45,994 bases of DNA from an uncultured Lachnospiraceae bacterium (GTDB taxonomy: Bacteria > Bacillota > Clostridia > Lachnospirales > Lachnospiraceae). The stretch is from contig CAMULB010000003.1 in assembly GCA_947089585.1 (NCBI GenBank), positions 1 to 45,994 of the forward strand, in the 5' to 3' direction. The notes under the pieces were generated by a model. The model made no database searches. It had not been told where the DNA came from and saw nothing but the letters and a program-made list of their open reading frames with translations. Below are positions 24,101 through 44,617 of the stretch, one piece after another; the first letter of the stretch is position 1; the number at the start of each line of letters is the position of its first letter. The position numbers and the translations under genes were made by a program.

Positions 24101-26102
24101 CCTCATCATAGTCACCGGGCGCTACAATGTAGTACCGCGCGCAATCCTCCTGCCCGTCCCCCTTGAAATCTGATAACAATGCACGATTGCCATTCTTGTC
24201 ATCAATCTCTAAATAGTCCAGATTCCATCTACAGGGATAGGTCTGATCTGTAATCGCAACCTCTCCAACATACTCACAGGTGTCAGCATGATAGCTCAGA
24301 GAAACACTCTTGGTTCCTTTGCCATACACAGCTGCGCGAAAGCGTACATATGCCTGCTTCTCCGGATTGTCTTCTTTTACTTTTACTCTGATTTCCACCT
24401 TCTCTCCCGCTTTGACTACGCGCCCATTTTCCCCGATCTCAATACTTTCAATCACCGGCGGTTCTAGATCGTATTGCTGGTCTACGGTAAAACTCACGTC
24501 CGTATCCGGCGCAATGTCCTTTGGGTCAAAATTATAATAACCTCCTTTTGACGAATGCACCTCAATCTTATATAATTCCCACTCTTCGGGATAAATTTTG
24601 TCGTCTACCAAAAACGTTCCTGACAGATTCCCCGAAGCTCGATCGTATGTAACTTCAAAATCTCTTCTGTGTGAGGAATGAGCCTGACATTGATAATACA
24701 TTCTCACCCAGTCAACGTTCACGCCTTCACACTGAAGTTTAGCCGTATACGTTACACTGTCTCCTAAGTTTAAAGTTCCATCCGCATTGCTGGCATTTTT
24801 TTCCATCTTCAGATCGGAAAGGGTTACTGACCCTTCTTGAGGCTTATTTTGAATGGTAAACTGGTAAAGATATTGGCCGTCCTCTCCTCTTACTTTTCCC
24901 TCTACATAGTTATTTCTTTCATCTTCCACGCGGATGCTGGACACAACAAAATTACTCTCCCAAAGCTGGCTGGCAGAAAGCTGCGCCGTATACAGGTTTT
25001 CTTCGCTGCTTTTTATAAATTCCAGCATCTTTCTGCTGCCATATCTGGTGCTAAGCAGCTCCACGGCAATTGATTTGACATCGCTGTCTGAGTCATAAAC
25101 ATACAAATTAAAATGAACCGTATCCTCTTGCGTTAAGGTCTGCCCATTTTCTACCAGCTCAAATCGCTCAATCACCGGCTGATTAATGTCATAAGAGCCA
25201 TCCAAGGGCAAAATATCCTCTGCGCCCTCGCGCTGTGGAAGCATAAATGTGCTCTGCTCTGCACCGCCAGGCAATCCCTCTTCCCCGGTTGGCTGCATGT
25301 TTTTCTCGCTGGCTTCTGAATCCTCGCCGATCTGTGCGTCTTCCTCTGCAGCTCCGGCTTCCGGCTGCTGCCCTTTTGCTGTGTCTTCGGGCTGCGGCGA
25401 CTGAACGTCTGTGGACAATTGTTGGTCCGGATTCTGTGAACCGTCCTTAGACGCTTCTGATGCCTGCCCCTGATCAGGAGCTGTTGGCTGCTGACCTATG
25501 TCCGTCCCCGCAGCAGACGACTGGCCTTCGTCTGCCGACGGCTCGTCCTGGCCGTCATTTGCCGGCTGCTGCGTCTCATTTGCAGACGACTCATCCGTAG
25601 ATGACTTGTCCTGGCCCGGATTTGGCTGCTGCATCCCATCTGCCGACGGCTTGTCTTGGCCGGGAGCGGCTGGCCGCTGGCTTTCATCCGTGGACGGCTC
25701 GTCTTGGCCACTCTCCGCTGGCCGCTGGCTTTCATCCGTGGACGGTTCGTCTTGGCCACTCTCCGCCGGCTGCTGCATATCCTTGGAAATCCCATCGCCT
25801 GCTTCCTGCTGGCCGGCGGACGGCTGTGCTGCTGCATCTGCCGACTCATCCTGGCCGCTGGTGATTGGTTGCTGACGCTCGTCCGCCCCCGCAGACGGCG
25901 ACTGATTCTCTTTGGCTGACGCCCCGTCCTGGCTCGAAGCGGCTGGCTGCTGGCCTTCCTCTGACGTTATGCGTCCGCTTTCTGTGCTTTGGCATTCACT
26001 GTCGTTTTGCTCTGCTGCTGCACCCTGGATTGGAGAGGCTGATGTAATTGCCAAGGATACTGCCAGCATGACTCCCAGTAATTTTCTGCCTGATTTTCTC
26101 AT
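21147..26102 (-). CDS. large secreted repeat protein ending in SPKTG, probable sortase substrate
   Basis: A 1651-residue surface protein of unknown function, probably an adhesin or scaffold. A signal peptide is visible (MRKSGRKLLGVMLAVSLA.. to about AAA-EQ). A low-complexity region of about 270 residues rich in Gln/Asp/Ser/Pro/Glu follows. Five beta-sandwich-like repeats of about 116-124 residues then start near 25178, 24830, 24458, 24095 and 23735, each opening P-V-I-x-S-I-x-I-x-x-N-G and closing with a W-x-L-x-x-L-x-I-x-D-x-x-G/N block. Further unassigned beta-rich domains and a Gly/Asp-rich acidic tail end the protein. The last six residues are SPKTGE. (S/N)PxTG is the kind of motif cut by clostridial class B sortases, but the usual hydrophobic segment and basic tail are absent. 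The start at 26102 is set by AGGAGG 8 nt upstream. Confidence 0.85.
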   Translation of the reverse strand: MRKSGRKLLGVMLAVSLAITSASPIQGAAAEQNDSECQSTESGRITSEEGQQPAASSQDGASAKENQSPSAGADERQQPITSGQDESADAAAQPSAGQQEAGDGISKDMQQPAESGQDEPSTDESQRPAESGQDEPSTDESQRPAAPGQDKPSADGMQQPNPGQDKSSTDESSANETQQPANDGQDEPSADEGQSSAAGTDIGQQPTAPDQGQASEASKDGSQNPDQQLSTDVQSPQPEDTAKGQQPEAGAAEEDAQIGEDSEASEKNMQPTGEEGLPGGAEQSTFMLPQREGAEDILPLDGSYDINQPVIERFELVENGQTLTQEDTVHFNLYVYDSDSDVKSIAVELLSTRYGSRKMLEFIKSSEENLYTAQLSASQLWESNFVVSSIRVEDERNNYVEGKVRGEDGQYLYQFTIQNKPQEGSVTLSDLKMEKNASNADGTLNLGDSVTYTAKLQCEGVNVDWVRMYYQCQAHSSHRRDFEVTYDRASGNLSGTFLVDDKIYPEEWELYKIEVHSSKGGYYNFDPKDIAPDTDVSFTVDQQYDLEPPVIESIEIGENGRVVKAGEKVEIRVKVKEDNPEKQAYVRFRAAVYGKGTKSVSLSYHADTCEYVGEVAITDQTYPCRWNLDYLEIDDKNGNRALLSDFKGDGQEDCARYYIVAPGDYDEENPVVTGITLERNGETVKAGERLTLKVEADEQNPSVGTAWFSLSTISYATIESVDLRYDETAKAYIGTVKIEASTHPGEWRLSQLLIKDRNNNTTNLTEGEGLEEKGACSFHVDEAGYDVEGPVIQSITIDKNGQFVKPGETLDIRIKIEDQNPDENKVFHAYFKPQVTNVSASLDVALRYNRAQNEYVGSIPITDDTYPCEWALKELDLKDKYGNRYSMSQELSSWSYTKPWYFKVKSGNTYREDVKNVTFNISGLMEQEDGSYAYGNVTRTAENVGRRATLKQLGVLPKAIEGVVTTWNYNWWGIQAGEDTELLFDSTEDMNCYLSASYDKGCANVSLTYVSEQDGQKTVVIPVFIDREATYKDVLAALELPKDAKADDFAEFLLSYSDSTHNWNTRVGDVTSVSAVADYKSCQVTWNARYIGQDSQEISQPIATSYREGTTVAEALAELEPPQDVMGMEGEGWMLLGADSDQVLPKEMVSFDLVALYSGRTTLDVSYTYRGEDGIIAGGSKLLAVEGENLSEAEIQGEATNAFKDANHLSGLILSEWAGESDIAEGRYKKIRFQAQYYNCVVVLKYPDESCQYVVVDKNSKFTLPTESEFYTDILWEGFAQGQTVTITEDREFLASDAKRKDGTQEVPAGERLTEEEIAKIKEEIEKAEAGTSVKIDMKKATVVPKEVLEAIKGKAIDLVVDMGSYSWSIDGTEVNATALKDIDLEVTIGTDQVPSALVSSIAEGKPVTQLSLTHNGEFGFRANLTLNLGSENSGSYGNLYYYDSSGKLVFRNAGQIGADGSTTLSFSHASDYVAVVDKVMHTGAGANQDPTGGSDDGTDNGETSGGSGNSDSPTGGADHNDSELPGGSDDGDDPTGGSGNDGDPTDGADRSDPENEADADGEDGDERKEPDEDREKEDISDKDDRKKDDGSIIPSGPEKKVPKGLTDEEAEQSDKDDTAATKEKNSNSVTADSGRTRTGAQSLKSPKTGE
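25681..25776 (-). repeat. 48-bp tandem duplication in the low-complexity region
   Basis: Two adjacent 48-bp units (25681-25728 and 25729-25776) differ at about four positions and encode GQDEPSTDESQRPAES-type 16-residue units. More degenerate copies flank them (QDKPSADG.., QDKSSTDE.., QDEPSADE..). Unit number can change without a frameshift. Confidence 0.85.
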
Positions 26103-26210
26103 CAATGATTCCTCCTCAGTTAAAAATGCATAACCTAAAACCTTTTTAATCAAATATCACACCTTTGTCCGATGTAATGCTCCCTCCTTCCCCGTAAAAA
26201 TCATATTTAT

Positions 26211-26969
26211 TTACTCCTCCTCGATCCGCACCGCTACGATCAAAAGGCGCTTCTCATCCCGGTCGCTGTAGCAGGTGGACAAGGTAAGAATACGCTGCTC
26301 TTTAGAAACCTCTGTACTTTCCCGAAAATTTCCTTTGCAGCCCCAAACATCGCCAAGATATCTCTGCAGCTCGGAACGATTGGAAAAATCATACGCATCG
26401 GGAATCAGCGCATCGGAGAATTCTGCCGCTGCAAAAATTTCATAAGTGAACGCGCTTTTCGGTGTATAAATTTTGATTTGGCTGTTTTCCTCAAAAAACG
26501 CCTTGTCCTCAAATTGATGCAGATCGGCGAACATACCTCCGTTTTTTAAATTGTGCCCATATAATACCGTCACAGGATCCTTGAAATCTCTGCGGTTGAC
26601 CCCTTGGGAATAGATTGCTCCCGGAAGCCCCTCCGTCAAATCAACCGTATGGTTCAGATAGTAATTGTCATAGGGGTCTGACGTATCTGTTTTCTGTAAA
26701 ACAGGGTAGTCAATATTTGTGCCTGGCACGGTAATCCATGCATAAATATCAGGATTTTTGGCCTGCAGCGTGCCAAAATCAATGGTCACCTCCCCGGCTT
26801 CATCGGCAGTCTTAACCTCCTCCACAGACAAATCCGTAAAGAATGTGGGCAAAGCCTCTGGCTCTGCCAAAACGCCGGTATTGTCGCCTTGCAAACTTGT
26901 AATTGAAACAACAAGGCCAAACAAGACAGTAAAGCAAGCCGCCAGTATTGTCTTTTTTTCTAATTTCAT
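26211..26969 (-). CDS. srtB: class B sortase
   Basis: Membrane-anchored transpeptidase that cleaves a sorting motif and attaches the protein to the wall. The 252-residue product has an N-terminal membrane anchor (about 8-26) and the sortase barrel. Catalytic His139 is in LYGHNLKNG, Cys233 in TLSTC and Arg241 in DEKRLL. The extra helices between strands and the overall length fit class B rather than A or D. GGGGAG lies 8 nt before the ATG. It is directly upstream of the SPKTG protein, 108 nt away with no terminator, so enzyme and presumed substrate form one operon. A TATAAT-type -10 lies near 27036 on the minus strand with no convincing -35. Confidence 0.94.
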   Translation of the reverse strand: MKLEKKTILAACFTVLFGLVVSITSLQGDNTGVLAEPEALPTFFTDLSVEEVKTADEAGEVTIDFGTLQAKNPDIYAWITVPGTNIDYPVLQKTDTSDPYDNYYLNHTVDLTEGLPGAIYSQGVNRRDFKDPVTVLYGHNLKNGGMFADLHQFEDKAFFEENSQIKIYTPKSAFTYEIFAAAEFSDALIPDAYDFSNRSELQRYLGDVWGCKGNFRESTEVSKEQRILTLSTCYSDRDEKRLLIVAVRIEEE

Positions 26970-28464: not shown

Positions 28465-29709
28465 CTATGCTGACTTTGATTTCAATGTATAAATGAGATA
28501 AGCGGTACTCAAAATTCCTGACACCAGGGTTACGATTACGGTTGCAAATGCCGCACCAATTGAACCATATATTGAGATCAGCACAACATCCGCCAACACA
28601 TTCACCGTTCCGGATATCGCTGCTACAAGCAAGTTAAATTTCAGCTTTCTTTGGGCCACCAATAAGTTTCCAGATACTATGCGAAACGTTGCAGAAAAAA
28701 AGTAGTTGATCGACAAAATACGAAAAATCAATATAGAATCCGCATACTGCTTTCCAAAAAACAGAGGCACAATCCAAGGTGCCAGCAAAACCAAAGTAAC
28801 CGATAAAAATAAATTAAAAATGCCAAAATATGTCATTATTTTCTTGTACCATTGCAAACACCAGAGTCGATCCTTCCTCCTCTCTGCAAAATAAGGATAC
28901 AAATAAGTCACCAAAGCCCCTGGTATAAACGTTAAGGCAGACGGAACGATTACTCCCACCTTATAGCTTGCCAGTATCGCTTCATCCGCTACTACAATCC
29001 CAATCACAAAAACATCCAGTAAATACAGTAATTGCGCCAACCCGTTATTACACATTGAAATGACGGATATCTTCATCATGGCAATCTTTTCTTGACGCTC
29101 AATTCTCCTATCATTGGTCAGAATCGGAATCCGCAAAAGGAATACGCCATAGAAAACCGTAAACAAATATGCAGCATAATAGCCAACAATCAGCCCCTTT
29201 TCTTTGAAATACCATGCACAGCACACAGAAATAACCAATACAAAAAATGTATTGATTACAGACAATCTCACATACTCCTGATTTCTTTTACGTGCCCTTA
29301 GATAAACGCTCATTAGCTCATAGACAAGCTGAACGACAGGCAAAAACAGAAGCATATCTAACAAATCACTTGCACCATTGACAGTCAGCGGCGCAAATCT
29401 GGCAATCAAAAATAGAACAGCGCCCAAAAAAAGATTGCAGACAGTCCCCATACGAATACAATATCCCAACATCGTATTCGTATAAGACTCTTCTCCGCCC
29501 TGTTCACTGCACATTTGCAGCATCCCAGACACAATTCCCAGCCCACTAAATAAAAGCAAAATATTATAAATATTCCACGAATAGGTGAATATTCCGTATT
29601 CCTGTTTTGTCAAAATCCGCACCATAATCATACTGCTTAAAAATGTCAGCACTTTATTGATCACATTTCCGCCAAATATATGAAAAAAACCCGTGCGAAA
29701 TAATTGCAT
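28465..29709 (-). CDS. wzx: polysaccharide flippase (Wzx/MATE-like, RfbX family)
   Basis: Membrane transporter expected to flip the lipid-linked repeat unit to the outside face. The product is about 414 residues with roughly 12 hydrophobic segments spread over its whole length. The start motif VINKVLTFLSSMIMVRILTKQEYG is typical of polysaccharide-biosynthesis flippases. The ATG at 29709 is preferred to the one at 29724 because GAGAGGA lies 8 nt upstream of it. It is AT-rich relative to the flanking wbp genes and is closely spaced with its neighbours. Confidence 0.9.
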   Translation of the reverse strand: MQLFRTGFFHIFGGNVINKVLTFLSSMIMVRILTKQEYGIFTYSWNIYNILLLFSGLGIVSGMLQMCSEQGGEESYTNTMLGYCIRMGTVCNLFLGAVLFLIARFAPLTVNGASDLLDMLLFLPVVQLVYELMSVYLRARKRNQEYVRLSVINTFFVLVISVCCAWYFKEKGLIVGYYAAYLFTVFYGVFLLRIPILTNDRRIERQEKIAMMKISVISMCNNGLAQLLYLLDVFVIGIVVADEAILASYKVGVIVPSALTFIPGALVTYLYPYFAERRKDRLWCLQWYKKIMTYFGIFNLFLSVTLVLLAPWIVPLFFGKQYADSILIFRILSINYFFSATFRIVSGNLLVAQRKLKFNLLVAAISGTVNVLADVVLISIYGSIGAAFATVIVTLVSGILSTAYLIYTLKSKSA

Positions 29710-29727
29710 GAGGCGTCCTCTCATCTT

Positions 29728-32731: not shown

Positions 32732-33958
32732 TTATCGAGATGCCGGAAGTGACATATCGCCATTTTTCATAAAATTACTCCATTGATAAAACTGCTGCGA
32801 AGGAACATAACTGTCATTGCATGTGCCTACAAAGTAAACAAGCACGACTATCATTCCAGTAAACAATAACGCCAAACCAAAAAACAGCTGACAATTCGTA
32901 TACTTTTTCTTAATACTTAATACATGTCTTCCTGAGAATTCTTCCACCAGTTCCATAATAATCGGGATAAACAATATCGGAAAAAATAATTGCATTCTAT
33001 TATAGACATCCGCCTGTCTAAGCATAACCAAACATAACAAAAAAAGTAATAAAATATAATGTAAATATTTTCTATATAAGATTTTTTTTGCGCTGTATCT
33101 CATAAAATACAATAATATTAAAAAGAGATACACATACATCAACGTCGCTTTTGTTGAAACGTGCTGATTCTCCACAACTGCCCGATCAACCAAATAATGC
33201 GACATTTTCAAAAGAAATTCTGTAAACACGGGGATATATATTTTGCTCGTAAGATGCACCATCCACGGAATAAACATATAAATTGAAGAAAGACCAATTG
33301 CAATCAGTATCATGGTCAGCTTATTACTCACTAAAATCAGTAAACGAAATCCCAGCAAAAGAATTGCTGTAGAATGGATCATACAAAGCAGTAAATAGAC
33401 AGCAAAGCATCTTTCTTTACGATAATTTTGAACCAAATCAAAATACAAAACAAATCCAAATATGGCAAAAACGATTGTTTGTCTGACTAGGGAAAGATAA
33501 ATATAATTATAACTTAAAAAAACAAAAACATAGCAAATCCTGACCGTTCTAAGCTTCATCTTTTCATTTTGAAAAAGATGGCTTATTTGCTTCATCATTA
33601 AACCGTATACCACAAAACAGGTGAACACTGCTAAAAACTGATACACTCCTATTTTACTGAGGAGCCAAGCAATAACGGAATACAGCTTATATACTGCTAC
33701 ATATCCTGTTACCGTCATCTCCATCAGCGTATTTCCCAATGAATTTGCTTGTAATCCTATTGCCTGCAAAAAAGACAATTTATTATAATGAACCATCATT
33801 AAGTAATACCGATAAAGATCATAGCCATTATCAGGCCAAAAAAAGAAAAAGAGTCCAGACAAAACGACAACCGATACAAATAAGTATCCTTTTATACTTT
33901 TTTTTGGCATCACCCATATCAACAAGCTTAACAGGACAATCAATATTATTATCTGCAT
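32732..33958 (-). CDS. wzy: EpsG-like oligosaccharide polymerase (Wzy candidate)
   Basis: A polytopic membrane protein of 408 residues with about 10-12 hydrophobic segments. EpsG-family landmarks are the early FFFFWPDNGYDLYRYYLMM block and a central SLVRQTIVFAIFGFVLYF segment. It is the only polymerase candidate in the locus and would join flipped repeat units outside the membrane. The ATG at 33958, 13 nt after the previous stop, gives a normal membrane start; the longer frame to 33997 overlaps the upstream gene and adds only a basic stretch. Very AT-rich. Confidence 0.85.
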   Translation of the reverse strand: MQIIILIVLLSLLIWVMPKKSIKGYLFVSVVVLSGLFFFFWPDNGYDLYRYYLMMVHYNKLSFLQAIGLQANSLGNTLMEMTVTGYVAVYKLYSVIAWLLSKIGVYQFLAVFTCFVVYGLMMKQISHLFQNEKMKLRTVRICYVFVFLSYNYIYLSLVRQTIVFAIFGFVLYFDLVQNYRKERCFAVYLLLCMIHSTAILLLGFRLLILVSNKLTMILIAIGLSSIYMFIPWMVHLTSKIYIPVFTEFLLKMSHYLVDRAVVENQHVSTKATLMYVYLFLILLYFMRYSAKKILYRKYLHYILLLFLLCLVMLRQADVYNRMQLFFPILFIPIIMELVEEFSGRHVLSIKKKYTNCQLFFGLALLFTGMIVVLVYFVGTCNDSYVPSQQFYQWSNFMKNGDMSLPASR

Positions 33959-33971
33959 GACACACCATCTT

Positions 33972-35090
33972 TCAACAAATCTTTTGCATATCGTCAACCA
34001 CTTTCTGCGCCCTTGATATCCATTGATTCGCTTCTAACGCTATCATTAGAGATTTTCGCTTTACTCTTATCAGTGAATAATCTTTATGAAGTTCCTTGAG
34101 CAGCCTCGCCAAAGCTTTCCTGCTATATTCAATGCACCAACCTGTATCGTTCTCCATGACAAATTCACCGGCTGCCGTTCGGTCCGCAGCAATCACAGGC
34201 ATTGTCTTGCCCAGATATTCAAATAATTTGATCGGCATTGCCATCTCTCTATACAAATCTGGCTTAAACCACGCCATACAAATATCCGCATTGCGGTAAT
34301 GCTTTTCTAAATCTTTACCAGAATCATGCACTATATGAATTCTATCGCAAAGCCATGGTTCATACTGCTCTTTCGCTTTCTCCCAATCCGGCTGCCTGCA
34401 GCAAAATGTCATTTCAACAAATTCTAATCTTCCTACTGTCTGGAACAGCTTCTCAACTGCATACTGATTTCCGATTCCTCCGACATAAAACAGTTTTAAT
34501 TTCTCATGTCCGTCTTCAGCCGCATAATATGCTTCTTTATCTTGAATAAACGTTTCTTCTGGTTCCGCGCCCGGTGGAAGCTCCTCCATTTTATCTTCCA
34601 GCCGTGGCCTGGCCACATATTTTGCCACTTTCTTATTTGGCACATAAAATTTTTCCAATATTCTCTCATACTGCCATAAATCATAGCGATACATAAAAAT
34701 TGCGAAAATATATCTTAAACCACGAACATTTTCTTTATATTCTGGAAATTTCCAATAGATATCACGATAAAAAAGTCCCGTCTTTATTCCATTTTTTTTA
34801 CAGAACTTCAAAAAACCAAAATCCAAAAAAGGATACGTCGGCAAATGGTGTCTCTCTGTCAACAATGTTGGCATAGTACTGCTCTCTGAATATACAAAAT
34901 CATATTTTATCCCTCTTTGAATATTCTTTCTTATCTTTTTAATAGCCTCTTTTCTTTCCTTACCATATCCCATTACAACATCAACTTCATATCCAAGGTC
35001 ACGAAATCCCTGCAACATTTTTGGAGGCCTGACATGTGAGCCGTAATTGCCCTCTAAGGAATTTGGAATATGAAATATGCACCTTCTCAT
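33972..35090 (-). CDS. glycosyltransferase, GT-B type
   Basis: A 372-residue probable glycosyltransferase. The N-terminal part has HIPNSLEGNYGSHVRPPKMLQGF (acceptor domain of a GT4-like enzyme). The C-terminal part has LFYVGGIGNQYAVEKLF, then HYRNADICMAWFKPD and AMPIKLFEYLGKTMPVIAADRTA, the donor-binding region with its conserved Glu (KLFEYL). It starts two bases after the upstream glycosyltransferase, with GGGAGG across the junction. Donor sugar unknown. AT-rich. Confidence 0.85.
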   Translation of the reverse strand: MRRCIFHIPNSLEGNYGSHVRPPKMLQGFRDLGYEVDVVMGYGKERKEAIKKIRKNIQRGIKYDFVYSESSTMPTLLTERHHLPTYPFLDFGFLKFCKKNGIKTGLFYRDIYWKFPEYKENVRGLRYIFAIFMYRYDLWQYERILEKFYVPNKKVAKYVARPRLEDKMEELPPGAEPEETFIQDKEAYYAAEDGHEKLKLFYVGGIGNQYAVEKLFQTVGRLEFVEMTFCCRQPDWEKAKEQYEPWLCDRIHIVHDSGKDLEKHYRNADICMAWFKPDLYREMAMPIKLFEYLGKTMPVIAADRTAAGEFVMENDTGWCIEYSRKALARLLKELHKDYSLIRVKRKSLMIALEANQWISRAQKVVDDMQKIC

Positions 35091-36484: not shown

Positions 36485-36979
36485 CTACAATACCTTCCCC
36501 CACTCGTCCACCCGTCCAATCACCCGCGCCGGAACTCCAGCCACCAGCGCATAGTCGGGCACATCCTTCGTCACAACCGCTCCCGCAGCCACAAGTGCAT
36601 ATTTGCCTACCGTATGACCACAGACAATCGTCGCATTCGCACCAATACTTGCTCCCCTTTGAATCAACGTTCTTTGATAACCCTCGCGTCCTTTCGGATA
36701 CTCCGCACGCGGTGTCAAATCATTGGTAAACACGCAGGACGGCCCGCAAAAAACACCGTCCTCCAGCTCCACACCTTCATAGAGCGAAACATTATTTTGA
36801 ATCTTACAGTGATTTCCGATCCGAACTCGATTGGATACATTGACATTCTGTCCCAGCGAGCAATGTTCCCCGATCCTTGCCCCGGACTGGATGTGGCAGA
36901 AATGCCAAATCTTTGTGCCAGAACCAATCTGCACATTCTCATCCACATAACTGCTCTCATGGACAAAATAATCCGCCAT
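36485..36979 (-). CDS. wbpD: UDP-3-amino-uronate N-acetyltransferase (WbpD/WlbB type)
   Basis: Acetylates the 3-amino group of UDP-GlcNAc3N-uronate using acetyl-CoA. The 164-residue product is a left-handed beta-helix protein with hexapeptide repeats (VQIGSG, ARIGEH, VRIGNH, ASIGAN). It carries the family's NVSLYEGVELEDGVFCGPSCVFTND block and the VAAGAVVTKDVPDYALVAGVPARVIG end. The start MADYFVHESSYVDENV is typical for WlbB-like enzymes. It overlaps wbpB by 23 nt, with GGAAGGAG ahead of its ATG, so the two are translationally coupled. Confidence 0.92.
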   Translation of the reverse strand: MADYFVHESSYVDENVQIGSGTKIWHFCHIQSGARIGEHCSLGQNVNVSNRVRIGNHCKIQNNVSLYEGVELEDGVFCGPSCVFTNDLTPRAEYPKGREGYQRTLIQRGASIGANATIVCGHTVGKYALVAAGAVVTKDVPDYALVAGVPARVIGRVDEWGKVL

Positions 36980-38072
36980 TTACGCTTTCTCCTTCCTGGC
37001 CAAACATCCCTTCCATCTCCACACTTGCAAACTCGACAAGCGGCAGCTTTACCGGCTCCCCCGTTTTCTGACTCTTGTATACCGCCAGTACCAGCTCCAG
37101 CGCATTGCGGCCAGCCACTGCATCCACATAAGGCCTGCGTCCTGTCTGAATGGCATCCGCCACATCGGCAAACAGACTGGTATGTCCGTTGCCATAGACA
37201 TTGCTCGTCGCTTCCTCCAGGCCCTTGTTTTCCTTGTCTGCCTCTGTCTCATCGGCAAACTCCCACACATCAATGTTGTTCGTAGACTTGCCGCCGATCT
37301 TCACCGTACCATTTTCACCAAATACGTACAGCGTCTCCTCCAAATTCTGCGGATAGACATTCGTCGTCCCTTCAATCGTAGCGATTGCGCCGTTTTTAAA
37401 CTGAACGACGGCCATCCCGATATCCTCTGCTTCCAAATAATGATGGAATTGCTGGCGTGTCTGTCCGTACACTTCTTCAATTTCGTCGCCAAATGTCCAG
37501 CGCAGCAGATCAATGCCATGAATACACTGGTTCATCAACGCCCCGCCGTCCTGCGCCCAGGTGCCGCGCCACGGCGCCTGTGTGTAATAATTCTGATTGC
37601 GGTTCCACCGTACATGAATTGAGCCATGCGACAGCTTCCCAAACCGTCCTTTTTCCAAGGCTGCCCGCAGCTTCTGCACCGCTACATTAAAGCGATTCTG
37701 ATGACAGGCGCATACCTGTACCTGCTTTTCTCTGGCCAAAGCTATGATGCGATCGGCGTCTGCCAGGGACATCGCCATCGGCTTTTCAATGATCACATGA
37801 ATTCCATGTGCAATACAGTAAAGCGCAATCTCGGCATGGCTGCCACTTTCCGTCGCGATACTGATCAGCTCCAATTCCTCTGCTTCGATCATCTGCTTGT
37901 AATCGTTATAGCGTTTGATGCTGCTGTCCTGTTCCAGATTGTGCTTGGCCAAAACCGCTTCCATATGCTCTGGCTCGATATCACATACGGCTGTAATCTC
38001 GAACTGATTATTGATTGCGGCCTTGATGTGGTTGGTGGAAATCCTTCCACAGCCGATTAATGCATATTTCAT
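36957..38072 (-). CDS. wbpB: UDP-GlcNAc-uronate 3-dehydrogenase (WbpB/WlbA type, Gfo/Idh/MocA family)
   Basis: NAD-dependent oxidoreductase that makes the 3-keto sugar nucleotide for WbpE. The 371-residue product has the N-terminal Rossmann motif ALIGCGRISTNH and the catalytic EKPMA motif with Lys97. A C-terminal beta-sheet domain typical of the family follows, including WRGTWAQDGGALMNQCIHGIDLLRW. The frame begins at a TTG (38081), but AAGGAG lies only one base before it and 10 before the ATG at 38072, so I use 38072. Its place beside wbpD and wbpI supports the specific role. Confidence 0.92.
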   Translation of the reverse strand: MKYALIGCGRISTNHIKAAINNQFEITAVCDIEPEHMEAVLAKHNLEQDSSIKRYNDYKQMIEAEELELISIATESGSHAEIALYCIAHGIHVIIEKPMAMSLADADRIIALAREKQVQVCACHQNRFNVAVQKLRAALEKGRFGKLSHGSIHVRWNRNQNYYTQAPWRGTWAQDGGALMNQCIHGIDLLRWTFGDEIEEVYGQTRQQFHHYLEAEDIGMAVVQFKNGAIATIEGTTNVYPQNLEETLYVFGENGTVKIGGKSTNNIDVWEFADETEADKENKGLEEATSNVYGNGHTSLFADVADAIQTGRRPYVDAVAGRNALELVLAVYKSQKTGEPVKLPLVEFASVEMEGMFGQEGESVNGGLFCP

Positions 38073-38116
38073 ATTTTGCAATCTCCTTCATCATCCATTT
38101 TTGCAATCCTCTTCCA

Positions 38117-39202
38117 TCATGCGCCGCACTCTTGCAGAGCTTCTATTGCGGAGACAATTTTTGCCGCCGCTTGTCCATCGCCAAACGGCAAATAACCTGC
38201 ATCCACCGTCTGCGGATGATTTAGCTTTTCCAATATCTCGTTCTGTTTTGGCCTGGCAAGTTCATTGCGGTTCTCAATCATTGTCTCCGGCCAGCAGACA
38301 AAATCAAGAATTGTCACACACTTTTTTCCGGCAAAAAATGCTTCCCGCTGCAATCCACCAGAATCGGTGACGATCTTCTTCGCATGATTGACCAGGCAGA
38401 TGCTGTCAAGATAGCCAACCGGTTCTGTAAAAAGGATCCTTGATAATCCATATTTTTCCTGCAATCGTTTCGCCCTGGCCTTATTACGGGGATGAACCGG
38501 ATAGACCGTCGGCGCGTCCAGCTGCTCCATGGCGGTGAGAATTTCCAGCAAATCCCGATCGTCACTGGTATTTTCTTCCCGATGGCAGGTCAGATAATAA
38601 AATTCCTGCGGCAGCGCACAGCCTTCGCCAGTGAGTCCGGTCAGTACAACCTCCCCCGGCGCTCGTTTTCTACTGTATGCCGTAAAGGCATCAAACATTG
38701 GATCCCCGACAAACCGTGCCCGTCTGGCCAAGCCCTCCTGCTCCATGCATTTCATTCCGCTCTCGGTACTGGCCAGAAGCAGACTGGAAACATGATCGGT
38801 GCAGATGCGGTTGAGCTCCTCTGGATTTGTCCGACTATGCGTGCGTGCTCCCGCCTCCACATGGCAAATGGGAAGATGAAGCTTGGCCGCCGTAAGAGCT
38901 GCGGCCAGCGTCGAATTGGTATCTCCGTATAACAGCACTACGTCCGGGTGCGTTTCAAGCATCGGCGCTTCCAACGCCATCATCATTTTTCCGGTCATCT
39001 GTGCATGGCTGCCTCCGGAAATACCAAGGTTATAATTGGGCTTGGGAATCTCCAATTCCTCAAAAAACTGCTCCGACATGTTATAGTCAAAATGCTGCCC
39101 TGTGTGAACCAGAATTTCCTGATGCTGTTTGCGAAGTTCTCTGCTCACCACCGCCGCCTTAATAAACTGCGGCCTTGCCCCAACTACCGTTAATATCTTC
39201 AC
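38117..39202 (-). CDS. wbpI: UDP-2,3-diacetamido-glucuronate 2-epimerase (WbpI type)
   Basis: Non-hydrolysing 2-epimerase of the WecB superfamily. The 361-residue product has VGARPQFIKA at the N-terminus, HVEAGARTHSRTNPEELNR in the middle and DSGGLQREAFFAGKKCVTI near the end. The early block HTGQHFDYNMSEQFFEELEIP resembles WbpI/WlbD enzymes more than the WecB type. That, with the wbpA/B/D/E homologues here, points to UDP-GlcNAc3NAcA as substrate and UDP-ManNAc3NAcA as product. A plain UDP-GlcNAc epimerase is the alternative. The start is a GTG two bases after the wbpA stop; GAGG lies in the wbpA end. Confidence 0.88.
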   Translation of the reverse strand: MKILTVVGARPQFIKAAVVSRELRKQHQEILVHTGQHFDYNMSEQFFEELEIPKPNYNLGISGGSHAQMTGKMMMALEAPMLETHPDVVLLYGDTNSTLAAALTAAKLHLPICHVEAGARTHSRTNPEELNRICTDHVSSLLLASTESGMKCMEQEGLARRARFVGDPMFDAFTAYSRKRAPGEVVLTGLTGEGCALPQEFYYLTCHREENTSDDRDLLEILTAMEQLDAPTVYPVHPRNKARAKRLQEKYGLSRILFTEPVGYLDSICLVNHAKKIVTDSGGLQREAFFAGKKCVTILDFVCWPETMIENRNELARPKQNEILEKLNHPQTVDAGYLPFGDGQAAAKIVSAIEALQECGA

Positions 39203-39204
39203 CT

Positions 39205-40521
39205 CTACAAAACCTCGACTTTCTCATTTATCCGCAGCCCCTTTGTGACATTTTTCGTATCAAATACTGCCTGGGCATGGTCAATGACCATCTGATAATC
39301 GACATTGGTATGTCCGGTTGTGATCATCACCAAATCATATCCGGCAATGATCTGAGGAGAAATTTCTTCAATTCCCTTCACAGTCTCGCCGTTTTCGCGA
39401 TACTCCGCCACCCAGGGATCGTAATAGTCCACCTCCGCGCCAACCCGGTGCAGTTCTTCGATCACACGGATGGACGGACTCTCGCGGTAATCGTCAATAT
39501 CCTGTTTGTAGGCCACGCCGAGCACCAGCACCTTGGAACCGTGAATCGCTTTCTTCTGCCGATTCAAAATATGCATCGCCCGGTCGATGCAGTAGCCCGG
39601 CTGTCCGTCATTGATGACCATGCTGTTCTCGATCAAGGTCGTGTGAAAGCCATATTCCCGCGCTTTCCAGGTAAGATAATAGGGGTCAAGGGGAATACAA
39701 TGACCGCCTAAGCCCGGCCCCGGATAAAACGCCTGGAACCCATAAGGCTTTGTCTTGGCTGCGTCGATCACTTCCCATACGGAAATGCCCATCTCATGAC
39801 AGAGCCGTCCCAGCTCATTGATGAGTCCGATGTTGATATTGCGGTAGGTATTTTCAAGAATTTTTTCCATCTCTGCAATTGCAGGGGACGAAACCGGATG
39901 AATTTCCCCTTCCAGCACCGAAGCATACATGGCCGCAATCACTTCTCCCGCATCCTTGCCGATTGCTCCTACCACCTTCGGTGTATTTTTGGTCTTATAA
40001 ATCAGATTGCCCGGATCCACGCGCTCCGGTGAAAATCCAAGGTAAAAATCCTCGCCACAGGTAAGGCCGGAGCCCTGTTCCAGAATCGGCTTGATCAATT
40101 CCTCCGTCGTTCCGGGATACGTTGTGGATTCCAGCACCACCATCGTCTGCGGCTTTAAATACTTTGCTACCTCAGCCGCGGAATCGCGCACATAGCTGAT
40201 GTCTGGTTCTTGGTGCTTGTCCAGAGGAGTCGGCACGCAGATCGCAATAAAGTCTGCATCCTTGACAAAGGAAAAATCGGTTGTAGCGGAAAGCATCCCA
40301 TCCTCCACCAGCTTTTTCAAATCCGAATCGACAACATCACCGATGTAATTGTGGCCTGCATTTACCAGTTCCACTTTTTCCTGCTGTATGTCAAATCCGA
40401 TTGTTTTAAATCCTGCCTTGGCCTTTTCCACTGCCAGCGGCAGGCCCACATAACCCAATCCCACCACTCCGGCGATGATTTTTTTGTCCTCAATCTTTTT
40501 TAAAAGCGCTTGTTTATCCAT
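39205..40521 (-). CDS. wbpA: UDP-GlcNAc 6-dehydrogenase (WbpA type)
   Basis: Oxidises UDP-GlcNAc to UDP-GlcNAc-uronate with two NAD, the first step of the diacetamido-uronate pathway. The 438-residue product has the NAD motif GLGYVGLP (21-28), the block CVPTPLDKHQEPDISYV seen in WbpA-like enzymes, and the catalytic Cys275 in GGHCIPLDPYYL. A C-terminal UDP-binding domain with the GVAYKQDIDDYRESPS motif follows. The frame extends upstream to 40599, but AGGAGG lies 9 nt before the ATG at 40521 and the extra residues match nothing. wbpI follows two bases after its stop. Confidence 0.93.
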   Translation of the reverse strand: MDKQALLKKIEDKKIIAGVVGLGYVGLPLAVEKAKAGFKTIGFDIQQEKVELVNAGHNYIGDVVDSDLKKLVEDGMLSATTDFSFVKDADFIAICVPTPLDKHQEPDISYVRDSAAEVAKYLKPQTMVVLESTTYPGTTEELIKPILEQGSGLTCGEDFYLGFSPERVDPGNLIYKTKNTPKVVGAIGKDAGEVIAAMYASVLEGEIHPVSSPAIAEMEKILENTYRNINIGLINELGRLCHEMGISVWEVIDAAKTKPYGFQAFYPGPGLGGHCIPLDPYYLTWKAREYGFHTTLIENSMVINDGQPGYCIDRAMHILNRQKKAIHGSKVLVLGVAYKQDIDDYRESPSIRVIEELHRVGAEVDYYDPWVAEYRENGETVKGIEEISPQIIAGYDLVMITTGHTNVDYQMVIDHAQAVFDTKNVTKGLRINEKVEVL

Positions 40522-40542
40522 TGCCAATTTCCTCCTGATTTT

Positions 40543-40574
40543 CCGGCCGCCCTGCCCTTGAATGGGCAGCCGGC
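40543..40574 (-). other. GC-rich hairpin in the leader of wbpA
   Basis: GCCGGC-TGCCC and GGGCA-GGGC-GGCCGG form a strong hairpin in the 94-nt gap between the truncated glycosyltransferase and wbpA, ending about 10 nt before the wbpA AGGAGG. No T tract follows, so it may be an mRNA-processing or stability element that separates wbpA expression from the genes upstream. Confidence 0.5.
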
Positions 40575-40615
40575 TATTTCCGGTTACTCCTGTCTTCAAG
40601 CATTGAAGTACAAGA

Positions 40616-41467
40616 CTATTTCATCAAATCTAAAAATTTCTTTGCCAACACGCTGTACTCATAATTTTTCAGTACCGCCTCGCGCCCATTCTTCCCCATC
40701 TGAATCCGTTCTGCCTCGCTCATACCCTGAAGTGTTTGGATTCCCTCCACAATTGCGTCTGGATTGCCCGCTTCAATCGTGAGGCCGCACTGATATTGCT
40801 CCGCAAATTGATTGGGCGCATTGACGGCGTACAGCATAGGCTTTCCGGCCATCATCACATCAAAAATCTTATTCATCGCAATTCCGAAACGATACAGTGG
40901 AGAATCCTTAACACCGACGTAGCAGCAATCAAAATATTCCACTAGCCTGGGAATCGCTAATTTGGGAACAGCGTCCAGAAAGATGAGATTGGAAACGCCC
41001 GCTTTTCTTGCTTTGTGCATCAGCCGTTCCTTTTCCACGCCGTCCCCTACCAGAACAAACTGTACCCGCTCGTCCTCCTGGGATCGAATTGCCGCTTCAA
41101 TCAAAACATCTAAGGCATTGCTCAAAGCATGTCCGCCAAAATACCCAACGATGAATTTGTTGTCCTTTTTCAACTCTGCAAGCACGGTTCGATGCGCTTT
41201 GGGAATTTCCTGCGGGCGCTCCCAGTCATCGCGCACAATTCCGTTGTTGATATGGACAAATGCACGTTCCTTTAAGCCATGCACCACCATATACTCCTTC
41301 GCATGCGACGCTAAGGAAACCACCAGATCGGAATGGCGATACGCAGAATTCTCCGCCCGCTGCATAAGCCATACAAAGGGGTGACGCCTGGACATTCCCC
41401 CAACCTCTATCAAAGTAGCTGGCCACAGGTCATGTACCTCATGAATCAATTTTGTTTTCTGCATCAT
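40616..41467 (-). CDS. N-terminally truncated glycosyltransferase, paralogue of the upstream gene
   Basis: A 283-residue protein that aligns with residues from about 135 onward of the 41467-42714 glycosyltransferase: LIHEVHDLWPATLIEVGGMSRRHPF here, LLHEIHDMWPITPMEMGGMSKFHPF there, and so on to the end. It keeps the C-terminal donor domain (GYFGGHALSNALDVLI, FVLVGDGVEKERL, RFGIAMNKIFDVMMAGKP) but lacks the first 130 or so residues of the N-terminal acceptor domain. It is not obviously dead: AGAAGGA precedes its ATG and the start overlaps the upstream stop in TAATG. It may be inactive, act with a partner, or be a remnant of a tandem duplication. Confidence 0.85.
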   Translation of the reverse strand: MMQKTKLIHEVHDLWPATLIEVGGMSRRHPFVWLMQRAENSAYRHSDLVVSLASHAKEYMVVHGLKERAFVHINNGIVRDDWERPQEIPKAHRTVLAELKKDNKFIVGYFGGHALSNALDVLIEAAIRSQEDERVQFVLVGDGVEKERLMHKARKAGVSNLIFLDAVPKLAIPRLVEYFDCCYVGVKDSPLYRFGIAMNKIFDVMMAGKPMLYAVNAPNQFAEQYQCGLTIEAGNPDAIVEGIQTLQGMSEAERIQMGKNGREAVLKNYEYSVLAKKFLDLMK

Positions 41468-42714
41468 TACAATTTTCCTTCTTGTATCACTGTTAAAAAT
41501 TGCTGCGCCAACACCTGATAATTAAAATGCTCGATCACGGCTTTTCGTCCCCTTTGGCCCATCTCAATTCGTTCCTCTTCTGTTTTCTGCTGCAATTGCA
41601 TAATTCCCTCCGCCAGCGCCAGCGCGTTCTCTGACTCCACACTGATTCCACACTGAAATTCCTCAATATAATTGTTTGGAGCCTCAATTGCATATACAAT
41701 CGGCTTTGCAGACATCATGGCGTCAAACAATTTATTCATGCAAATACCAAAGCGAGACATACGATTCTTCTTGATTCCAACATAAATGCCATCCACATTT
41801 GCCAGCAAAGAAGGGATACAGCTTTTCTTCACCGGCGGCATAAAGCAGACTGGTGCCCCCAGGCCTTCCGCATATTGGCGCAAATTTTCTTTGTCCATGC
41901 CGTCTCCCACAAACAATGCGCAAATCTGCTCATTCTTCAGTCTTGTGACCGCATCAATCAGGTACTCTAACGCATAGGATTTGGTATGGCTGCCAAAAAA
42001 ACAAATCACAAATTTCCCCTGTTCTTTCCAGCGATCCAGCTGCTGCTGACAAGCTTCTGGCAGACTCTTTTGTTTCTGCCACTCTTCCAGTACAATGCCA
42101 TTGGGTATGGAGACAAATTTTTCTTCCGCCATTCCATGACGCATCAAATATTGTTTGGCAGCCGGCAGCAAAGAAACGACCCGATCAGAGTGGCGGCAAA
42201 AACTGTTTTCCGCCAGCTGCATCACGGCAATAAAGGGATGAAATTTGGACATACCGCCCATCTCCATCGGTGTAATCGGCCACATATCATGAATTTCATG
42301 GAGAAGAATTACCCCCCCCCCGCTCCGATTGGCCAACCGCCGCAGCCGCTGTCCCGCATACGTATCCAGCGGATACGTCGAGGAGGTGATAATTGCATTG
42401 GGCCGATACTTCCTGACAATCCATTTTGCCTTCAACCAGATCTTCGATACAAACCGCGCCATCGTAATTGCCCGCTTAGCCCCGTTGCCCTCATAGGCGC
42501 CTGTTTTAATCCAGCAGTATGTAATTCCGTCAATCAATTCCTCTGTAAAATCCTTTTCCACCCTGGGATTACGGCTGCGCAGATGTGAATAATCACCGGC
42601 CAGAATCGTCACCTGATGCCCGGCCTTCACCCATTCCCTCGCCATATAATAAGGTCTGTATTCCATTCCCATCTCCAACGATCCCGCATAATGGTTAATC
42701 AGCAAAATGTTCAT
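41467..42714 (-). CDS. glycosyltransferase, GT4 (WbuB-like), with internal G10 tract
   Basis: Probable repeat-unit glycosyltransferase of 415 residues. The N-terminal acceptor domain starts MNILLINHYAGSLEMGMEYRPYYMAREW. The donor domain has CFFGSHTKSYALEYLIDAV, LFVGDGMDKENLR and RFGICMNKLFDAMMSAKPIVYAI. WbuB-like enzymes transfer amino-deoxy sugars such as FucNAc; the donor here is unknown. The frame also has an ATG at 42720, overlapping the previous stop, but GAGGG is correctly spaced only for the ATG at 42714. An uninterrupted run of ten G encodes Gly-Gly-Gly just before VILLHEIHDMWP; any one-base change in it ends translation within about five codons. Confidence 0.9.
   Translation of the reverse strand: MNILLINHYAGSLEMGMEYRPYYMAREWVKAGHQVTILAGDYSHLRSRNPRVEKDFTEELIDGITYCWIKTGAYEGNGAKRAITMARFVSKIWLKAKWIVRKYRPNAIITSSTYPLDTYAGQRLRRLANRSGGGVILLHEIHDMWPITPMEMGGMSKFHPFIAVMQLAENSFCRHSDRVVSLLPAAKQYLMRHGMAEEKFVSIPNGIVLEEWQKQKSLPEACQQQLDRWKEQGKFVICFFGSHTKSYALEYLIDAVTRLKNEQICALFVGDGMDKENLRQYAEGLGAPVCFMPPVKKSCIPSLLANVDGIYVGIKKNRMSRFGICMNKLFDAMMSAKPIVYAIEAPNNYIEEFQCGISVESENALALAEGIMQLQQKTEEERIEMGQRGRKAVIEHFNYQVLAQQFLTVIQEGKL
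42312..42321 (-). repeat. homopolymeric G10 tract in a glycosyltransferase gene
   Basis: Ten C on the plus strand, ten G on the coding strand, about 395 nt into the gene. The current length keeps the frame open. With nine G the next codon is TAA; with eleven G a TGA follows after GGT AAT TCT TCT CCA. This is the layout of a slipped-strand phase-variation switch. I noticed no comparable C or G run elsewhere in the window. Confidence 0.85.
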
Positions 42715-42716
42715 CT

Positions 42717-43415
42717 TCATCCCTCAAAGTCTTTTCCCAGCACGGCAAGCACCGTCCAAAACATCTCTTTCAGATTCTGCATAAAACTAAAATTCCGAAT
42801 TTCATCCAAATTGTAGCGCATCTTCTGTGGCAGAATTTCTTCTATATAAATACGGTCCGCATCCTCCCCGGTTGCCAGCAGCTCATCCTCATTCTTATAC
42901 AAAATAGAGGCCAGGCTGGTGACACCGGCCGGCAGCAGCAGGGTTGCCCGCATCTCCTCGCTGTATTGTGCAACATACTTCGGCACCTCTGGGCGCGTGC
43001 CGACAAAGGTCATCGTTCCCCGCAGCACATCAATCAGCTGACAGATTTCATCCAGCCGCAGCTTGCGAATCCAGGCCCCAACCCTGGTAATGCGCGGATC
43101 GCGCTTCAATGTCACCTGCGTGCCAAGCTGCTGGGCGTGCTGTACCATGGTGCGAAATTTAAAAATCCGAAAATGGCGTCCGTACTGCGTCACTCGCTCC
43201 TGGCGAAAGAAAACCGGCCCCGGCGAGTCCAGCTTGATCGCAATCGCCAAAAGCAGAAACAGCGGCGCTAGAACCACCAGCATCAGAAGCGAAACCACAA
43301 GATCAAAGCCCCGCTTTAACAGCAGGCTCATTTTTCTTTTTGCCAGAATCTCATAGTAATCCTTCACCGGGTCGCAGCGCATAAATTCCGGAAGCTGCTC
43401 CCACTTTTTCAGCAT
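42717..43415 (-). CDS. initiating phosphoglycosyl transferase (undecaprenyl-phosphate sugar-1-P transferase)
   Basis: Starts repeat-unit assembly by moving a sugar-1-phosphate from a nucleotide sugar to undecaprenyl phosphate at the inner membrane face. The 232-residue product is a small monotopic enzyme of the WcaJ_C/PglC group. It has a re-entrant hydrophobic helix at about 35-60 with the KRGFDLV entry, DSPGPVFFRQERV, FKFRTM, and the catalytic Asp122-Glu123 dyad (RLDEICQLIDVLRG), then the FVGTRPEVPKYV end. It overlaps DegT by 7 nt and the next gene's frame by 4 nt. The sugar moved is not determined; the adjacent aminotransferase suggests an amino sugar. Confidence 0.94.
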   Translation of the reverse strand: MLKKWEQLPEFMRCDPVKDYYEILAKRKMSLLLKRGFDLVVSLLMLVVLAPLFLLLAIAIKLDSPGPVFFRQERVTQYGRHFRIFKFRTMVQHAQQLGTQVTLKRDPRITRVGAWIRKLRLDEICQLIDVLRGTMTFVGTRPEVPKYVAQYSEEMRATLLLPAGVTSLASILYKNEDELLATGEDADRIYIEEILPQKMRYNLDEIRNFSFMQNLKEMFWTVLAVLGKDFEG

Positions 43416-44617
43416 TTGAGATACCTCTTCACAATTCGGCTGTACTGCTCGATCACATACGCAACCTCCTCATCGGTCAAAAGCGTATGCAGCGGAAGCG
43501 TGATTTCATTTGCAAAATGCGCATAAGCCATCGGATAATCTGCGATCTCAAAGCCCATCTTCTGATAACCGCTCATCATCGGCAGCGGTTTGTAATGTAC
43601 ATTGGTGGAAATTCCCGCCTGTGCCATCGCAACGATGATCTCCTGGCGCTGGTCGGGCGATATCCCCGGCACTCTCGTCAGATACAAATGGCCGGAGCTC
43701 TGCCATTCCTTCGTATAATGCGGTAATACTTCGATTCCCAAGGGCTTTAAGGCTGTGTCGTATGCTTCAATCAGCTCTTTTCTTCGCTTGAGAATCATTG
43801 GGTATCGTTTCAGCTGCGCCAAACCGATTCCGGCCATAATATCCGTCATATTGCATTTGTACCAGGGACCGACAATATCGTATTCCCATGCGCCGAGCTG
43901 TGTCTTGGCCAAAGCATCCTTTGACTGGCCGTGCAGAGAAAACAATTGAATCTGCTGATACAGCTCTTCATCGGCAATGCCGGGAATGCTGTTCCAGGTC
44001 AGTGCTCCGCCCTCGGCCGTCGTCAGATTTTTGACCGCATGAAAGCTAAAGCTGGAAAAATCCGCAATCGCTCCTACCATCCGTCCATGCCAGGACGCGC
44101 CAAAGGCATGCGCCGCATCCGTACAGACTGCAACCCGTCCCAACGCCTCCTGGATTTGGTTCGCCGGCTGAAAAATCCCTCTTTTTCGTTCCACAATTGA
44201 AAAAATTCGCGCATAATCACAGGGAATCCCGGCCAAATCCACCGGGATCACTGCCTTTGTCCGCTCATTGATGGCCGCCTCCAAAGCCTCGTAGTCAAGC
44301 TCCAGCGAATCCTTCTGGATATCAATCATCACCAAGGTCGCTCCGACATGGCATACCACTGACGCACTTGCCGTATAGGTATAGGCGGGCACAATGACCT
44401 CGTCCCCCGAACCAATCCCCAGACAGCGCAGCGCCATTTCTGCACAGGCAGTCTGTGAATTCAGGCAGACCGCTTTCTCTACCTGGCAATATTCTGCAAT
44501 CCTGCGTTCAAATTCTTTTGTCTTGGGCCCGGTGGTAATCCAGCCGGAGCTCATAGCCGCCGCTGCCTCTTGAATCTCCAGATCCGTTAAATCCGGCGGT
44601 GAAAATGAAATATTCAT
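43409..44617 (-). CDS. DegT/DnrJ/EryC1-family sugar aminotransferase
   Basis: A 402-residue PLP-dependent aminotransferase acting on a keto-sugar nucleotide. PLP site: Lys196 (SFHAVKNLTTAEGG) and Asp167 (CTDAAHAFG). The N-terminus ISFSPPDLTDLEIQEAAAAMSSGWITTGPK is typical of C4 aminotransferases (ArnB/PglE-like), which normally act after a 4,6-dehydratase. No dehydratase is in the window, so its substrate would come from a gene elsewhere. It is the first gene of the polysaccharide operon, with AAGGAG 7 nt before the ATG, and overlaps the phosphoglycosyl transferase, so it probably makes that enzyme's sugar. Confidence 0.9.
   Translation of the reverse strand: MNISFSPPDLTDLEIQEAAAAMSSGWITTGPKTKEFERRIAEYCQVEKAVCLNSQTACAEMALRCLGIGSGDEVIVPAYTYTASASVVCHVGATLVMIDIQKDSLELDYEALEAAINERTKAVIPVDLAGIPCDYARIFSIVERKRGIFQPANQIQEALGRVAVCTDAAHAFGASWHGRMVGAIADFSSFSFHAVKNLTTAEGGALTWNSIPGIADEELYQQIQLFSLHGQSKDALAKTQLGAWEYDIVGPWYKCNMTDIMAGIGLAQLKRYPMILKRRKELIEAYDTALKPLGIEVLPHYTKEWQSSGHLYLTRVPGISPDQRQEIIVAMAQAGISTNVHYKPLPMMSGYQKMGFEIADYPMAYAHFANEITLPLHTLLTDEEVAYVIEQYSRIVKRYLKC

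Follow-up and report, generated by a model that had tools for sequence, protein, structure and literature searches.

A G10 tract at the module joint of a GT4 glycosyltransferase gene as a probable phase-variation switch in a Lachnospiraceae polysaccharide locus

Homopolymeric G or C tracts in surface-glycan genes serve as contingency loci in Campylobacter and Neisseria; Cj1295 of Campylobacter is reportedly an example of a poly-G contingency locus, and the phasome is said to have been studied in Neisseria. In Helicobacter pylori, slippage in the poly-C tract of the futC-type fucosyltransferase gene gives a truncated or full-length transferase, and to our knowledge this system has no spare C-half of a second specificity, unlike the locus described here. 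Alg13/Alg14 is a split GT-B enzyme with its acceptor and donor parts on separate chains.

According to the excerpted part of PMC10937113, natural two-chain GT-B enzymes are known only near Alg13/Alg14, and an active enzyme can form from the N and C domains of engineered GT-B proteins when these are co-expressed as two chains. The pili of the gut commensal Bifidobacterium breve are described in abstract as being switched by replication slippage at an intragenic G tract, with a range of lengths in the population (PMC9187656), and capsule promoter expression in M. gnavus is reported to be non-bimodal (PMC13121745). No published case of poly-G phase variation in Lachnospiraceae was found in open PMC papers, and none of a tract acting by module exchange was found in literature listings.

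We analyzed a window of 45,994 nucleotides from an uncultured Lachnospiraceae bacterium, in which a G tract lies within a GT4 glycosyltransferase gene, P0001. Like the Campylobacter and Neisseria loci, this is a G tract in a surface-glycan gene that sets the frame ON or OFF, in a genome with many tracts; it differs from them in belonging to another phylum and in that the joint at which the tract sits is shared by an orphan half gene from the enzyme's own family. As in the futC-type system, slippage would give a truncated or a full-length transferase. With B. breve it shares the gut commensal setting, the intragenic position of the G tract and, as read from database proteins, a range of tract lengths, whereas the latter concerns actinobacterial pilus genes, with no glycosyltransferase and no partner half gene in the abstract (PMC9187656). 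Poly-G switching of glycan genes and a G-tract switch in a gut commensal (Bifidobacterium) are already known; what is new is the lineage, the pairing with an orphan half and a module joint as the site of the tract. The results would extend surface-glycan homopolymer phase variation to a probable gut clostridial lineage, and provide a concrete set of 17 tracts.

The tract-bearing gene and its surroundings comprise the following features:
43409..44617, minus strand: DegT/DnrJ/EryC1-type sugar aminotransferase
42717..43415, minus strand: initiating sugar-phosphate transferase (Bac_transf), just upstream of P0001
41467..42720, minus strand: P0001, 417-aa GT4 (type B) glycosyltransferase holding the tract; Pfam Glyco_transf_4 and Glycos_transf_1 above cut-off, GT-B model
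39205..40599, minus strand: nucleotide-sugar dehydrogenase (TIGR03026, above cut-off)
38117..39202, minus strand: UDP-GlcNAc 2-epimerase, wecB (TIGR00236, above cut-off)
36957..38081, minus strand: Gfo/Idh/MocA oxidoreductase
36485..36979, minus strand: hexapeptide acyltransferase
32732..33997, minus strand: EpsG-family (polymerase-like) membrane protein
28465..29724, minus strand: Wzx-like flippase (Polysacc_synt_3)

Together with three further GT4-like genes, these make up a Wzx/EpsG-type polysaccharide locus, which presumably makes a capsule; its polymer would be exposed at the cell surface. P0001 matched both the N- and the C-terminal GT4 domains above the Pfam cut-offs (scores, with cut-offs in brackets: PF13439 54.2 (28.5), PF13579 51.3 (29.7), PF13692 47.4 (27) and PF00534 41.9 (26.4)), and no NCBIfam model reached its cut-off. 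The predicted structure has two Rossmann domains, with MshA, BshA and other GT4 enzymes as best Foldseek hits. Elsewhere in the window, a sortase gene (26211-26969) adjoins a gene (21147-26153) for a 1668-aa protein that has a signal-like start and ends in SPKTGE directly at the stop, without a hydrophobic tail.

The tract itself was first noted in a sequence-only reading, which described a run of ten G within an otherwise intact glycosyltransferase gene. The run is indeed there, in frame within the 417-aa ORF 41467-42720(-), and is read as C10 on the plus strand:
42312..42321, minus strand (C10 on the plus strand): G10 tract, codons 134-136 (GGG) plus the first base of V137
42309..42311, minus strand: TAA that follows the tract at once on its 3' side; the present frame reads it as GTA-A, and a tract with one G fewer or two more turns it into a stop

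No other homopolymer in the window exceeds a length of 8. In 545 kb of DNA not chosen for tracts, G runs numbered 1435 at G4, 265 at G5, 24 at G6 and 1 at G7, and a second population stood above this decay at lengths of 8 or more (n=14, including the run in the window); because the G4-G7 counts decay so steeply, G10 lies beyond run-length expectation. Lengths 6 to 13 were then read through the real flanks. The frame was open at 7, 10 and 13, stopped by TAA right after the tract at 6, 9 and 12, and stopped by TGA after NSSP at 8 and 11, so that the two outcomes given in the earlier reading, an immediate TAA on loss of one G and a downstream TGA on gain of one, are both borne out at lengths 9 and 11. 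An intragenic repeat far above background is a mark of contingency loci, as is a frame toggled between open and stopped by unit changes, and both are seen here. Mapped onto the predicted model (mean pLDDT 93.9), the break comes after helix 119-132 and before strand 138-143, in the loop that links these two elements of the N-terminal Rossmann domain; the OFF form would therefore lose the end of the acceptor domain together with the whole donor domain, which upholds the earlier statement that the donor domain is lost in both outcomes and widens the predicted loss. No RNA element matched Rfam within the window.

Evidence that the length varies came from database proteins, for which tract lengths were read back from the amino acid sequence, so that homopolymer assembly errors are possible in the lengths other than 10. 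P0003 (414 aa, 99% identical to P0001) has two substitutions and one Gly fewer, and its RSGGVILL reads as G7, in frame. P0123 (138 aa) is 100% identical to the N-terminal part of P0001 and ends in RSGGG-NSSP-stop, which reads as G8, OFF. Their clusters, which are 90% clusters rather than exact sequences, hold 12 member sequences (3 contigs) and 11 member sequences (1 contig), respectively. Near-identical copies thus appear to vary in length and to include ON and OFF forms, as contingency loci do. The same site is occupied in another lineage, where L085 and P0111 are ON (RGGVIL) and P0130, 88% and 83% identical to that kind, reads as OFF with GGG-NSDS-stop. A Gly run ends 6 of 113 truncated relatives at the joint (P0123, P0130, P0160, P0161, P0174 and P0178). 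Among 34 aligned copies, two have a run of 9 or 10 at the site (L085, G9 ON; the type-A copy of L095, G10 ON), one (L087) has an interrupted GGGGGGAGG, and in 31 a G run longer than 4 is absent. The pattern that would speak against a switch, a fixed length with the same glycines encoded by mixed codons, is not what we found. The earlier identification of the tract as a phase-variation switch is supported by proteins that read as G7 (full length) and G8 (truncated). The same-genus genomes G001-G005 had no close copy of the locus (best E 7.9e-9), which is why it is untraceable among close kin here.

We conclude, with a probability of roughly 0.85, that slippage at the G10 tract at the module joint switches P0001 ON and OFF in a surface-polysaccharide locus, with G7 and G8 versions in the databases. 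Tract length would change through slipped-strand mispairing during replication, and the OFF product, of about 131 native residues plus a short tail, would probably be inactive alone. Since the P0001 gene follows that of an initiating transferase, it may be a sugar placed early in the repeat unit that distinguishes ON from OFF cells.

The position of the tract within the enzyme family was examined by splitting the GT4 relatives at the HExHDxWP motif, which begins 5 to 7 residues after the tract. The corresponding parts of P0001 are:
42325..42720, minus strand: N-module (residues 1-132), which A- and B-type enzymes of the family exchange; the predicted OFF product minus its short tail (compare P0123)
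42277..42300, minus strand: HEIHDMWP motif (residues 141-148), the joint at which A-B chimeras pass from one partner to the other

C-halves fell into types A (P0002-like) and B (P0001-like), with fully supported separation in the tree, whereas A and B types were mixed in the N-module tree. Over 15 A and 17 B rows, mean N-module identity was 0.663 between A and B, 0.686 within A and 0.669 within B; the C-half values were 0.461, 0.592 and 0.547. N-modules were at least 90% identical in 67 of 12753 A-B pairs, and three such pairs combined a 100% identical N-module with about 48% identity in the C-half. The best break lay 7 residues after the motif start in 9 of 14 pairs selected by hand among 25 listed, and at +9 in two; the remaining three had their best breaks at -8, +18 and -19. 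These comparisons indicate that the first ~133 residues are exchanged between A and B C-halves within this GT4 family, that HExHDxWP acts as a recombination joint with wide C-half exchange, and that the G tract is located at the evolutionary joint of the two exchangeable modules of P0001. Tandem full-length A and B genes are found in L095 and L098; the idea that A and B are always tandem genes homogenized by conversion was rejected, as most loci carry one gene only.

Directly downstream of P0001 lies a gene that begins at the same joint:
40616..41467, minus strand: P0002 (283 aa), an orphan half that corresponds to the C-terminal part of a type-A GT4, its start lying 8 residues ahead of the HEVHDLWP motif

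Its start codon overlaps the P0001 stop (TAATG). P0002 matched a GT4 family in Pfam, and in its predicted model, which is well ordered (pLDDT 94.4), the N domain is reduced to the last strands. P0236 is 83% identical to P0002 and starts at the same site. In L085 and L087, a type-A half lies directly before the B gene, and the operon order (initiating transferase, GT pair, dehydrogenase, epimerase) is that of the window. A GGAGG precedes the TTG start of the L085 half. The L087 half has an in-frame TAG, which may be an error as L087 is a MAG, and the tract at its joint is interrupted. A lone C-terminal chain with an intact frame and a start is thus encoded by P0002 and by the L085 half; the L087 half is broken. 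Orphan halves occur in 3 of 46 loci (the window, L085 and L087), all among the four loci with a tract or an eroded tract (hypergeometric 0.00026, or 0.0045 if L085 and L087 are taken as one lineage among 37 loci). The 46 loci are the window plus three sets of 30, 7 and 8, leaving out L112 (partial), L214-L216 (22-24% identity) and the duplicates L205, L209 and L213; flanks were shorter than 1.2 kb on one side in three loci and about 1.1-1.5 kb in eight others, so distant orphan halves could be missed. In the C-half tree (49 rows), P0002 and P0236 fall in a different supported group of full-length type-A enzymes from the L085 and L087 halves, which suggests two losses of the N-part and two origins of orphan halves. 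The B clade is partly unresolved in the same tree, and therefore the window and L085 tracts, which have like flanks (Gn-TAATTCT), need not be independent. P0352, labelled a half in the tree, was read as the C-terminal frame of an OFF gene. No further orphan half was found when P0002 was searched against 392 and 391 more genomes, and no further carrier of a tract with an orphan half when the B gene was searched in 145 relatives of the L085 genome.

The tract, its frames, the locus, the length variants and the set of tracts in the assembly (below) are all accounted for if enzyme B is simply switched ON and OFF, but this fails to explain the intact orphan halves that start at the cut, beside tracts. 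The likeliest of the rival accounts is that P0002 is left over from a tandem type-A gene and that the tract is a plain ON/OFF switch, which we regard as plausible at somewhat under even odds. The tandem full-length pairs in L095 and L098 and the broken half in L087 fit a leftover; the intact 283-aa frame of P0002, the cut of P0236 at the same site and two separate losses to the same end residue beside tracts argue against one.

The joint shared by tract and orphan half suggests a further reading, which we hold tentatively and consider rather unlikely: the OFF state would free the N-module of B to pair in trans with P0002, so that the tract picks the donor module. Slightly more doubtful still is the broader proposal that the G tract is a module selector, with slippage swapping glycosyltransferases so that the polysaccharide is changed instead of lost, and that this arose in two lineages. 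If true, it would amount to a GT4 enzyme naturally built from two chains and to a phase switch that trades one glycan structure for another instead of giving it up, of relevance for phage resistance and immune recognition of commensals; only then would P0001/P0002 resemble Alg13/Alg14 in having acceptor and donor parts on separate chains, and two differences from that enzyme would remain, the GT4 family matches of P0001 and P0002 and the position of the cut inside the N domain. Trans pairing would be consistent with the confinement of orphan halves to loci with a tract or an eroded tract (3/46), the seemingly twofold loss of the N-part, N-modules that are interchangeable across A and B beside distinct C-halves, the shared cut of P0236, the GGAGG before the L085 half, and the coincidence in L087 of an interrupted tract with an in-frame TAG. 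Against it, the TAATG overlap leads one to expect reduced P0002 translation in the OFF state, orphans are known from two lineages only and short flanks could hide distant ones, the TAG of the L087 MAG may be spurious, and the wider genome searches added no orphans. The engineered separate-chain GT-B enzymes speak for pairing (excerpt of PMC10937113), but they were cut in the inter-domain linker rather than inside the N domain, and one cleaved pair, NB1//CB1, was inactive in the same excerpt.

The chimeras bear on another alternative, in which P0002 is a silent cassette whose C-half is placed onto P0001 by recombination at HExHDxWP, the tract being a separate ON/OFF switch. In its favor, A-B chimeras that diverge at the joint after near-identical N-modules are common. 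However, a swap should leave an orphan B half and none was present in the loci compared, a start codon and ribosome site would be needless, yet both intact halves have them, and the shared DNA at the joint is short; we judge the cassette clearly unlikely. It is very improbable that every cell makes both products through transcriptional or ribosomal slippage at the tract: long G runs can also slip at the RNA level and a TAA stands at the tract, but proteins that read as other DNA lengths exist.

The tract in P0001 is one of several in this genome. The assembly (303 contigs, 90.75% complete) has 17 G tracts of at least 9, merged from 41 overlapping hits. Of the 16 with both flanks present, 12 are in or against genes: seven for GT, EpsG or sugar-acyltransferase proteins, three for methyltransferases, one for a GNAT acetyltransferase and one without a family. 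Of the remaining four, one precedes padR and three occupy promoter-like spacers upstream of genes for Big_2-like or BspA-LRR proteins. At one G9 tract (L047, G000:C162), a frame break in the assembly separates a GT2 domain ahead of the tract from a GtrA domain behind it; the two parts are likely one gene in the OFF state. In L040, L043 and L050, a G10 stands between a TTGACA/TTGAAA-like box and TAAAAT (spacers 19, 20 and 15) ahead of genes for secreted Big_2-like or BspA-LRR proteins, and these tracts are likely promoter-spacer switches.

TA follows 13 of 16 long tracts in this genome and 44 of 83 in other genomes, compared with 37 of 694 G4-G6 runs at the same loci (p 9e-27). For this comparison, 80 places were taken from among the matches listed, passing over those of G174, those close to the end of a contig, repeats that were nearly identical and all entries from G147 onward; 99 tracts (16 own plus 83 others) were then classified. 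The flank is nearly always TAA or TAT and occurs in genes and promoter-like spacers alike. TAA as a purpose-built instant stop was rejected, because TAT is equally common after coding G tracts (TAT 11/30, TAA 9/30); judged by eye, the TA flank is not a -10 box in the coding cases either. A sequencing or assembly error in the homopolymer is scarcely tenable for the G10, for although the assembly is fragmented and the C117 tract ends a contig, G10 keeps a conserved gene intact, other named genomes carry G9 and G10 at these very codons, and the common 3' flank of the tracts differs from that of short G runs. Chance or artefact was rejected, given the run-length decay and the tracts that other genomes carry at this site.

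Family-wide, 55 of 299 genomes contain G9TAA; its matches number 124, the reversed control has 39, and 21 of those come from a single genome (totals summed by hand). Of 22 coding tracts in other genomes, 20 were run against Pfam, and 4 proved glycan- or surface-type (a GT4 pair, acyltransferase 3, WcbI and a BspA-type LRR), so that the glycan bias of the present genome is not family-wide; the other classes include SBPs, AraC-type regulators, Iso_dh, DegV and five without a family. One family genome, G174 (68% complete), has at least 73 places with G9 and suitable flanks in 1.6 Mb, which far exceeds the other genomes among the matches listed.
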